A stretch of 37,104 nucleotides of DNA, taken from IMG/VR virus record IMGVR_UViG_3300037087_000035, positions 1 through 37,104 of that record; one strand, written 5' to 3'. The DNA is from a virus. The number at the start of each line of letters is the position of its first letter. Position 1 is the stretch's first letter. Shown here piece by piece: positions 28,466-35,982 of the stretch. The notes beneath the pieces are model-generated. The model saw only the letters and a program-made list of their open reading frames with translations. It made no database searches and was not told where the DNA came from. The position numbers and the translations under genes are program-made.

Positions 28466-28611
28466 TAGCGCACGCCGTCAAGACGAATGCCGATCTTAAG
28501 CACATAGTCGCCAGCAGCCTTGCGCCGTATGTCCTCCTGAGCGTCCTTGCCGTCGGGCCACTGCAAGCCTACAAGGTCAGACGAGAACAGCAGCTCCTCC
28601 GCTTCCGTCAC
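28465..28611 (-). CDS. Small hypothetical protein (48 aa)
   Basis: GTG at 28611 overlaps the upstream stop as GTGA; a longer frame exists but lies within the neighbouring gene. The protein is acidic then basic: EAEELLFSSDLVGLQWPDGK, a helix, then DYVLKIGIRLDGVR. No family is recognised. Position in the chain of coupled tiny genes supports it. Confidence 0.55.
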   Translation of the reverse strand: MTEAEELLFSSDLVGLQWPDGKDAQEDIRRKAAGDYVLKIGIRLDGVR

Positions 28612-28904
28612 GGCGTCGCCTTCTGCTCTTCCGGCATCCAGTCCATGCACCCGCCGTTGGGTGGAGACGGAGGCCATGCGCTTATGATCGTGGGCTGGAC
28701 GTTCGGCTGATGTCCTCCACCTACCCCAACGATGTTGCCGGTCTTGACTTGCATGAGAAACGGCGTCGGTGGATGTCTCCGACACTGCCCCATCTGCTGA
28801 CCTGACTCTGCCGGTGGCGGTTGCCATGCCGCACAGCTCGCACACATTCTCTGAGGCACCGGATCGACCTGTGCCTTACTTGGGAACTTGATCTCTTCAG
28901 CCAT
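28608..28904 (-). CDS. Cys-rich small protein (98 aa)
   Basis: The ATG at 28904 is preceded by AGGAGG. The pattern MCASCAAWQPP ... MGQCRRHPPTPF ... GGCMDWMPEEQ follows CxxC..W......GxCrrh.P.........W/CxxW, a small metal- or disulfide-type protein widespread in phages with no assigned role. The last Cys-rich segment is near the C-terminus. It is coupled to both neighbours. Confidence 0.65.
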   Translation of the reverse strand: MAEEIKFPSKAQVDPVPQRMCASCAAWQPPPAESGQQMGQCRRHPPTPFLMQVKTGNIVGVGGGHQPNVQPTIISAWPPSPPNGGCMDWMPEEQKATP

Positions 28905-29165: not shown

Positions 29166-29320
29166 CGACCGACCAGCCTTCCCGTGGGGCTGTACTGCAA
29201 GGGCACCGCCGGCACCCCGGTAGCAACGAACTTCCCGCAGTCGCACACTTGGCCGACCACAGGCATAGCTATCACGATCCCTCGACCGCAGGTGATCACA
29301 TGGTTGTTGAAACTACACAT
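29162..29320 (-). CDS. Small Cys-containing protein (52 aa)
   Basis: The ATG at 29320 overlaps the terminase small-subunit stop by eight bases and has a GAGGCGAAGG leader. MCSFNNHVITCGRGIVIAMP is followed by VCDCGKFVATG, with three or four Cys that may bind one zinc. The end is polar. The family is not recognised. Confidence 0.55.
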   Translation of the reverse strand: MCSFNNHVITCGRGIVIAMPVVGQVCDCGKFVATGVPAVPLQYSPTGRLVGR

Positions 29321-30098
29321 CCTTCGCCTCTTCGCGCATCTTGCGCCACTTCGCCGCGGCTGAATCGGCTTCCGCCCCCTGACCGGGAACCCCGGTAGCT
29401 GTGTTCTGGGGCAGCCAACCACCATACGGCTCGAATACGATCACCTCCCTGTCCGCTTCTGCCTGCTCGCCCCACTTGTCCGGCATGATCCGTCCGGCAA
29501 CCTGTAGCGTCCTCTGGATCCTCTTGTCCCGGGCGTTAACCCAATCGCGGGCAACAGGAATACGCGCCTCGGCAAACTTCACAAGCGCCTTTACCGTCTC
29601 CACAGGGTCGAGCCCCGTCAGGTCAGGGGCTTTGACCATCTCGAGCAGTGACTCGTGCTCCCGGTCAAGAGACTTTGCCAGCTCGAGAGTCCGCTGGGCC
29701 TCAGAGTCCACGGCAAAGGAGTAGGATTTCTCACAAGCTTCCCTGAACTCGGGATGAGAAGTTACCGCCTTGAACAGAGTAGTACGGCTGGGAAGCAGCA
29801 CACGACGCATGCCAGGTCTGGCCGTTCCCATTTGTTTTCGTTTGTTCTCGCCCTCTTCGATGATCTTCTCGAATGACCATCCTTGGGATTGAAGCTCGAT
29901 AACCCGAAGTTGCCACGGCTCGAACACGGTCTCCTGTACTTCTTGCATTTCCCGCGTAACGTCAGCTTCAAGCTTGGCATCCTTCGTGCGGTCGGATAGG
30001 GAGGAGGTCACATTCTTGTTGCGCTTGGTGAGCTTTTGGTCCTTGCCCCCGGCGCCCTTCTGTGCTTTCCCCTGCGGTCCCTTTGGCTGGTCAGGCAT
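29313..30098 (-). CDS. terS: Terminase small subunit-like DNA-recognition protein, 261 aa
   Basis: I start at 30098, which has GGAGG six bases upstream. The N-terminal 40 residues are basic and disordered. FEPWQLRVIELQSQGWSFEKI is followed by SRTTLFKAVTSHPEFREACE and a Glu/Ala helix, which is the HTH plus helix pattern of phage terminase small subunits (T.y.WL..hPeF...y..Are). The C-terminal half has KRIQRTLQVAGRIMPDKWGE, matching the usual K....YGd region, and ends with a charged tail. It would recognise the packaging site and load the large subunit. It is the first gene of the late operon. Confidence 0.8.
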   Translation of the reverse strand: MPDQPKGPQGKAQKGAGGKDQKLTKRNKNVTSSLSDRTKDAKLEADVTREMQEVQETVFEPWQLRVIELQSQGWSFEKIIEEGENKRKQMGTARPGMRRVLLPSRTTLFKAVTSHPEFREACEKSYSFAVDSEAQRTLELAKSLDREHESLLEMVKAPDLTGLDPVETVKALVKFAEARIPVARDWVNARDKRIQRTLQVAGRIMPDKWGEQAEADREVIVFEPYGGWLPQNTATGVPGQGAEADSAAAKWRKMREEAKDV

Positions 30099-30120: not shown

Positions 30121-30150
30121 ATCATATCCCGGCTTGTGTCGGAAAGTCCT
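30121..30150 (-). promoter_or_regulatory. Probable promoter of the late (terminase-to-holin) operon
   Basis: On the minus strand TATGAT (complement at 30121-30126; five of six matches to the -10 consensus) lies 18 bases after AGGACT (30145-30150; three of six). Start of transcription near 30114 would give a leader of about 16 bases before the terminase small-subunit ATG. The weak -35 suggests that an activator may be needed. Confidence 0.5.
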
Positions 30151-30162
30151 ATCGATTGCCCC

Positions 30163-30192
30163 TTGACTTCCTATACTTCCTATGCATACCAT
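30163..30192 (+). promoter_or_regulatory. Promoter of the lone plus-strand gene
   Basis: TTGACT (30163-30168, five of six) is followed by 18 bases and TACCAT (30187-30192, four of six). The spacer holds a perfect tandem ACTTCCTAT repeat (30166-30174, 30175-30183), a candidate operator. The start would be near 30199, about 15 bases before the ATG at 30214. Confidence 0.6.
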
Positions 30193-30213
30193 ACAGATAT
30201 GGAGGTAGAGAAC

Positions 30214-30402
30214 ATGCTGCGTCACGAGGTTTCCGCTATCATAGGAGCGTACAGCCGACAGGGTGAATCGGCCGTCGCGGTCCCCGGAGGGTTCCTGGTG
30301 GACGGAAAGTACAGGACCATGAAAGAGGCGAGGCGCGACACGGAGACTGATCCGCACGTGCTTCGGGTTATCGTGGAGCGCCGGCGCTCGGTGATGGCGT
30401 AG
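30214..30402 (+). CDS. Lone plus-strand basic protein (62 aa)
   Basis: I choose the ATG at 30214, placed seven bases after GGAGGT; the in-frame ATG at 30199 lies within that site. The protein starts MLRHEVSAIIGAYSRQGESA, then VAVPGGFLVDGKYRTMKEAR, and ends in a basic helix (LRVIVERRRSVMA). It reads against the flow of all neighbouring genes and has its own promoter and terminator. The beta-hairpin plus basic helix composition fits a small nucleic-acid-binding regulator. Its position head-to-head with the late operon suggests late-gene control, but this is inference. Confidence 0.65.
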   Translation: MLRHEVSAIIGAYSRQGESAVAVPGGFLVDGKYRTMKEARRDTETDPHVLRVIVERRRSVMA

Positions 30403-30414
30403 GAGGTTCACGAG

Positions 30415-30447
30415 GCGGGGTGTCCGGCGGGGCATCCCGCTTTTTTT
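30415..30447 (+). terminator. Intrinsic terminator of the lone plus-strand gene
   Basis: GCGGGGTGT pairs with GCATCCCGC (9 bp with two G-U pairs) around an 8-base loop and is followed by seven T residues (30441-30447). It starts 12 bases after the stop codon. It acts on the plus strand only. Confidence 0.85.
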
Positions 30448-30570: not shown

Positions 30571-30780
30571 TCACTTCCCCGCTTCCTCGTCCTCGGCGAG
30601 AAGGGCGCGCAACGCTCTCACCGTATCGCCGTTCCCCCATTGCAGAGCGTTCTCGATTCCATATGCCATCTCCCCTATTCTGCCATCTACATCCGAGGCA
30701 AGGTAATAGTCTTGCGGTGGCTGACATCGCAAGGAACCGCGATACCTCTTCAATGTCGCCGGCCCTCCGCTATTCTTCAC
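30571..30780 (-). CDS. Small protein with YYL.SDV domain (69 aa)
   Basis: The start is GTG at 30780, with AAGGAGG five bases upstream, inside the end of the 590-aa gene. LKRYRGSLRCQPPQDYYLAS and DVDGRIGEM are followed by a helix and a charged tail. The LKRY ... (Q)D.YYL.SDV segment recurs in the 79-aa gene at 34033, so this is a small shared domain. It is the last gene of the right operon. Confidence 0.65.
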   Translation of the reverse strand: MKNSGGPATLKRYRGSLRCQPPQDYYLASDVDGRIGEMAYGIENALQWGNGDTVRALRALLAEDEEAGK

Positions 30781-35278: not shown

Positions 35279-35982
35279 TAGTCCCTCCCCGCCGCGGCGG
35301 CTTTCCCGTCTTCCAATTCGAGCTGCACCGTCGCACGCTTCTCCTCCGGCGGGAAAAGTTTCAACTGCTCGTACTCCCGCTCGATGCGCTTGCATGCTAT
35401 GTCGAAATACTTCGGTTCGATCTCTATGCCGATGAACTTGCGGCCGAGGCGCGCGCAGGCCACGCCGGTAGTGCCCGAGCCCATGAAGGGGTCAAGGACG
35501 CACTCCCCCGGAAGTGAAGCTCTGTTGACCATCCATGCCATCCATTTTTCAGGCTTCGGGCACGGATGCCCGTTTTTCTCGCTCATTTCGGTGCATTGGA
35601 TGGAGTTCGGTTTTTTGTTATTGGATGGATGGGGGTCTTTGCCGTAGTAGAGGATGGGCTGAAAGCATGTAAATCCCCACCGGCTAAAACCTGCTCCGGC
35701 TGGAAAGTACACGGCCCCTGTCTCGTCAGGCCGAGGGTAGAGCCACATACATCTGGTTCCAGGCGTCACTACAACTCGGCCGAATCTCGCTATGCACATT
35801 TCAATAGCTGGAACCATGACCGCTCGGACGTTCTCCTCCGTATCGTCAATCTCCGCGTACTCGAGGCCAACTCCGTACATGGGGTCCGTGACCACGGCAT
35901 CCACCGGCCCGAGAGTCGGCAGGATTTCTAGGCAGTCCCCGAGGTACAGCTCTGCATCCCCGATGCGCACGGGCTCAGGCAT
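35278..35982 (-). CDS. DNA methyltransferase (N6-adenine/N4-cytosine type), 234 aa
   Basis: The start at 35982 overlaps the upstream gene by eight bases and has GGGAGG. The order is motif IV DPMY (33-36) before the SAM-binding VLDPFMGSGTTG (162-173) and FIGIEIEP, as in beta-class methyltransferases of the N6_N4 family (PF01555). Motif IV is usually (D/N/S)PP(Y/F/W), so the second Pro is replaced by Met here. The protein could protect phage DNA from host restriction. No cognate nuclease is evident next to it. Confidence 0.85.
   Translation of the reverse strand: MPEPVRIGDAELYLGDCLEILPTLGPVDAVVTDPMYGVGLEYAEIDDTEENVRAVMVPAIEMCIARFGRVVVTPGTRCMWLYPRPDETGAVYFPAGAGFSRWGFTCFQPILYYGKDPHPSNNKKPNSIQCTEMSEKNGHPCPKPEKWMAWMVNRASLPGECVLDPFMGSGTTGVACARLGRKFIGIEIEPKYFDIACKRIEREYEQLKLFPPEEKRATVQLELEDGKAAAAGRD

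Follow-up and report, generated by a model that had tools for sequence, protein, structure and literature searches.

Gene sets used by phages for early host takeover or anti-restriction, for example those of the Ral/Lar type, consist of short family-less genes behind a host-type promoter, and a strong host-type promoter with variable small orphan genes behind it is how early accessory regions are usually built. Morons, described in lambdoid and other phages, are single small genes that carry their own promoter and terminator and vary between relatives (PMC2147016). In Pseudomonas phage Fc02, overlapping forward-strand exclusion genes lie within the lysis-lysogeny region, where they overlap coding sequence (PMC9936078).

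The locus described here is a gene for a 62-aa protein (P62) in an IMG/VR record of 37,104 bases without end repeats (the window, meaning the whole stretch that was analysed). Terminase, portal, capsid and tail genes of the window are remotely related to those of epsilon15-like and BcepC6B-like podoviruses, and its source is an uncultured podovirus. Related capsid, portal and terminase genes stand in the same order in the epsilon15-like phage phiV10 and in BcepC6B, but these two, unlike the window, lack a divergent gene where the terminase genes begin; such a bare start of the small terminase subunit gene (TerS) was seen in these remote phages only, and near relatives carry other genes in the same slot. 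The locus is like the early takeover and anti-restriction sets in its short family-less genes and host-type promoter, and a zinc ribbon encoded in one relative resembles Lar below cut-off; it differs in adjoining the terminase genes with the opposite reading direction, and its function here is putative. Like a moron, the P62 gene is single and small, has a promoter and terminator of its own and is variable among relatives; unlike one, it has ordinary G+C and a homologue that lies in an operon, and the promoter and ribosome site of the slot outlast gene swaps. As in Fc02, small genes on one strand would face an opposing lytic transcript, but the Fc02 genes differ in their lysis-lysogeny location and overlap with coding sequence, and the likeness is one of layout. 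Literature searches for this cassette layout found no direct precedent.

The P62 gene and its product

Genes were called greedily with a codon model trained on 12 larger ORFs of the window, which gave about 40 minus-strand genes and a single plus-strand gene at 30214-30402. The earlier note had described this as the only complete plus-strand gene among about 57 minus-strand genes; its isolation on the plus strand held, and the minus-strand counts differ. The divergent neighbour is TerS (29313-30098, minus strand; phrog_1482, PF20901 and codon model), for which the start at 30098 was favoured over 30125 because of a GGAGG upstream of 30098 and the codon model; the divergent gap between the two genes is 115 nt. 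On its other side the P62 gene ends, as had been noted from the letters alone, where the right operon converges on it, the last right-operon ORFs stopping at 30571 or 30545. Elsewhere in the window, the right arm encodes a DNA methyltransferase (N6_N4_Mtase; 35281-35982, minus strand), and a short gene that separates the two terminase subunit genes (28608-28904, minus strand) has a 31% match to L008 2194-2553 (minus strand), which is the last right-operon gene of the relative G002 introduced below; it is a candidate for a moved or duplicated gene.

The P62 ORF scored +4.8 in the codon model, against -8.4 and -10.8 for the other two plus frames and -3.9 to -17.7 for the three antisense frames. 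Its translation (MLRHEVSAIIGAYSRQGESAVAVPGGFLVDGKYRTMKEARRDTETDPHVLRVIVERRRSVMA, 62 residues) is 58% identical to a homologue in G002 (E = 8.5e-14), with an 8-residue insertion in the pair alignment between strands 2 and 3 of the structure model. Among 35 identical residues, 21 are encoded by synonymously changed codons. For the pair overall dN was ~0.45, dS ~1.67 and dN/dS ~0.27, and for the first 43 aligned codons 0.28, 1.48 and 0.19, ratios that are rough because dS is near saturation. Judged by codon usage and by comparison with this homologue, the predicted gene is a genuine coding gene and is under purifying selection.

AlphaFold2, run with the two sequences, predicted a helix, three strands and a helix in both homologues (alpha-beta-beta-beta-alpha; pLDDT 79 for P62 and 76 for the G002 protein). 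The N-terminal 43 residues of P62 are confidently modelled and conserved; the C-terminal part, which holds a helix that is basic in the model, is neither. The earlier note had remarked that the product resembles no regulator, and this agreed with our searches: Pfam, PHROGs, NCBIfam, PADLOC and PDB sequences gave no family match and no helix-turn-helix, so that the profile search it had proposed for the 62-aa protein named no family in Pfam, PHROGs or NCBIfam. Fold searches with the models of both homologues returned no match with E <= 0.001. A HicA-like or dsRBD-like fold was not supported, since the topology is alike but the HicA-like matches had E values of 1.3 and 2.2; at the turn in question P62 has Gly-Gly-Phe in place of the HicA His motif. 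A match to phrog_22503 (E = 0.22) was taken as chance. Queries with P62 found no relative in IMG/VR, bacterial and archaeal genomes, phages or plasmids; the G002 homologue surfaced solely by searching records reached through the large terminase, and no third member emerged when IMG/VR was scanned with a profile of the two proteins. The G002 homologue itself matched an Arthrobacter phage at E = 0.7 and a Vibrio phage at E = 0.08.

A slot with constant signals and variable genes

A search with the large terminase yielded four contigs at 70-74% identity, two of which cover the slot, and terminase and capsid profile searches found no further locus spanning it; the comparison therefore comprised three loci, namely the window, G002 (IMGVR_UViG_3300032893_000147; coordinates under L008 and L004) and G003 (IMGVR_UViG_3300036886_000100; L005). 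In both relatives the slot adjoining the small terminase gene is occupied by several small plus-strand genes that diverge from it. G002 has four of them, at L008:1081-1272, 1276-1482, 1495-1686 and 1690-1950, head-to-head with TerS, and the P62 homologue is the second of the four. About four other, unrelated small genes occupy the slot in G003 (ORFs of 79, 51, 84 and 57 residues). No P62 homologue was detected in the 16-kb G003 contig, a fragment that holds the whole slot; the 57-residue ORF has the string G-[EK]-[FY]-R-T-[LM]-K-E-A-R in common, a likeness judged by eye and without statistical weight. One G003 cassette protein (L005 5304-5456, minus strand) is a zinc ribbon that matched ECs_2282 at E = 3.9e-6 and Lar restriction alleviation at E = 3.1e-4, both below the curated cut-offs.

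Several further observations were made on these two contigs. The ends of the G002 contig (L008 1-971 and L004 1-1067) overlap with strain differences at 87-97% identity, and the best-matching part has 428 identities in 440 bases. This overlap points to a near-complete circle or a permuted genome, and G002 is probably circularly permuted or end-redundant, though classed as having no end repeats. In G003, one right-operon product has a Walker A motif (GAPKLGKS) and the look of a RepA-type helicase (L005 743-1585, plus strand), which suggests that the right operon is the replication operon. The product of L005 2387-3160 (plus strand) has long Ala/Tyr-rich repeats (ATYAADANATYA...) and is probably a repeat-bearing phage protein.

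Promoters were evaluated by consensus matching. The sigma-70-like promoter that the earlier note had assigned to the P62 gene, TTGACT-18-TACCAT, was located at 30163-30192 (plus strand) and matches the consensus at 9 of 12 positions; on simulated sequences a 9/12 site occurs within the 60 nt preceding the ATG with P = 0.046, which is weak. The promoters at the equivalent position in the relatives are stronger: TTGACA-16-TAGTAT in G002 (L008:1032-1059, plus strand; 10/12, P = 0.008) and TTGACA-18-TATACT in G003 (L005:5759-5730; 11/12, less than 1 in 4000). In all three slots the distance from the end of the -10 hexamer to the first ATG is exactly 21 nt. Singly, the candidate P62 promoter is unconvincing; taken together, the three predicted promoters are convincing. 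They are followed by a short leader with a ribosome site, TATGGAGG or CATGGAGG, in identical placement in the three slots. In the window the leader occupies 30198-30213 (plus strand), where TATGGAGG confirms the proper ribosome site described from the letters, in a form common to both relatives. The predicted intrinsic terminator is likewise present at 30412-30447 (plus strand), a GC hairpin of 14 pairs that folds 4.5 sd better than shuffles (z = -4.5) followed by TTTTTTT, the only T7 run in the window; G002 has a strong equivalent at L008:1966-2007 (z = -6.1).

A perfect tandem of two copies of ACTTCCTAT had been placed in the promoter spacer. The repeat exists and is perfect (30166-30183, plus strand), but it covers more than the spacer, its first copy overlapping the -35 hexamer. 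It is the sole perfect tandem repeat with a unit of 8-30 nt in the window (0.23 expected for units of at least 9 nt), is absent from G002 and G003, and is possibly an operator or a product of replication slippage.

These features bear on the reading of P62 as a classical moron, that is, a single gene acquired recently, equipped with a promoter and terminator of its own and expressed in the prophage state to the advantage of the lysogen. The gene does have its own promoter, ribosome site, terminator and orientation, as far as the sequence goes, and the content of the slot varies among relatives; to this extent the earlier description of an autonomous, moron-like gene held as regards layout. Its composition is not deviant, however: G+C is 63.0% compared with 58.9% for the genome (85th percentile; sd 3.8 for windows of the length of the gene), and recent import is thus unsupported. 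Since the G002 homologue lies inside a four-gene operon, being a single autonomous gene is a property of the window genome, not of the family, and the promoter is that of the slot and was not carried along by the gene. Among the scanned proteins no lysogeny gene was recognised, neither an integrase nor a repressor being seen. A classical moron is therefore unlikely; on the sequence, "moron-like slot" is a fair label and moron membership itself is unsupported, and P62 may still be expressed during lysogeny.

Late transcription and a minus-strand RNA candidate

The earlier note had seen in the locus the layout of a late-gene switch, back-to-back with a terminase/structural promoter with a weak -35. 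On such an account P62 would regulate the late operon by binding the divergent gap, perhaps at the tandem ACTTCCTAT. Its location between divergent transcription units, the uniqueness of the tandem in the window and the basic C-terminal helix of the model are consistent with this. The tandem, however, is the sole candidate operator, and G002 carries the gene without it; conservation of P62 is lowest in the C-terminal part, and neither a DNA-binding family (Pfam, PHROGs, NCBIfam) nor a fold was matched. Between TerS and the P62 gene of the window no minus-strand promoter was found above threshold, so the proposed opposing promoter was not recovered. A TerS-ward promoter-like site is present in the gap of G003 (TTGACA-17-GACATT) and weakly so in G002 (GTGGCA-18-TAACTT), and a head-to-head late promoter is therefore not conserved. 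G003 retains the divergent slot, its promoter and the late operon, yet no P62 homologue was found in its contig, which argues that the gene is untied from late transcription. The earlier note had held that a gene missing beside a conserved late promoter would count against its proposal; the gene is missing from the G003 contig, in which the layout is retained, and no opposing late promoter is conserved. We consider a late-operon regulator very unlikely.

The highest-scoring promoter-like site of the window lies elsewhere, where the right operon ends. It is an extended -10 site, TTGCCA-17-TACTAT with TG, at 30567-30539 (minus strand), and is the only one in the window to score 11 when TG is counted as two. 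A candidate structured RNA follows at 30531-30476 (minus strand), with a 9-bp outer stem (30531-30523 paired with 30484-30476; the presumed RNA would start at the stem foot) and an inner stem; the inner part contains CCCCGCGCATACG, which is exact in G002 (13 conserved bases). In G002, counterparts of the site and the element occupy the same relative place (L008 2216-2104, minus strand), the weaker promoter-like site being at L008:2216. Compared with the window, three stem pairs are changed on both sides there, one is changed on one side and none is broken, as counted from a hand alignment since MAFFT misplaced the outer stem. With the 3' arm fixed, a 9-bp stem has a chance of ~1% per genome. 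No Rfam family was assigned: a match to P31 had 17 bits against a cut-off of 40 and was attributed to chance, as was a third exact occurrence of the RNA motif, in L013, where the surrounding sequence is non-homologous to these phages.

The presumed minus-strand transcript would be antisense to the whole P62 gene and head toward TerS. A promoter at 30567-30539 might thus make a structured-leader RNA that runs across the P62 gene into the terminase operon, late transcription silencing the early cassette. The score of the site and the doubly compensatory pairs of an unbroken stem at a conserved place favour this account. Set against it are a comparison of two sequences, a weak G002 promoter (7/12 plus TG), modest MFE z-scores of the element (-2.1 and -0.9) and the lack of the element in G003. 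We regard it as possible though unlikely, and it is compatible with the cassette explanation given below, not exclusive of it. The fuller version, in which an RNA from 30567 with a conserved structured 5' element would both silence the cassette and act on late transcription as an antitermination leader or small RNA, is decidedly unlikely. The candidate antisense leader is a lead only, drawn from two sequences; if true, it would outweigh the cassette finding.

A proposed early accessory cassette

We favour, with a probability of roughly 65%, the explanation that the locus represents, in one-gene form, a promoter-driven variable accessory cassette with an early, host-directed product, and no late-gene switch. 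Across the three genomes the same slot and promoter are combined with different small genes. Because the genes differ between genomes and the entry signal is constant, the promoter is assigned to the slot; and because the same start signal precedes longer and variable groups of small genes in the relatives, the slot is read as an early accessory one rather than a late-gene switch. The coding gene, the terminator, the conserved slot, the promoter position, the ribosome site and the variable content are backed by the sequence, and from them we infer when the cassette would be transcribed, that its promoter would be used and what P62 would do. Against this explanation weigh the coverage of the slot by three loci only, a Lar resemblance that is weak and belongs to a neighbouring gene in G003, not to P62, and searches in which P62 matched no family, fold or solved structure.

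In this group of podoviruses the cassette would lie on the strand opposite to every other gene, between the two operons, at the point where the right (replication-type) operon ends and the terminase/structural operon begins. Most likely, host RNA polymerase would read it from the sigma-70 promoter soon after entry; the transcript would begin just 5' of the fixed ribosome site and would be halted by the terminator before colliding with the converging right operon. From this anatomy, the most likely role of P62 is that of a small accessory protein directed early in infection at the host or at host defences.

With a stable promoter and ribosome site marking the slot, early accessory genes could be collected by position alone in this group of uncultured podoviruses. 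P62 and the other cassette proteins without family would make the slot a modest source of putative host-directed small proteins.
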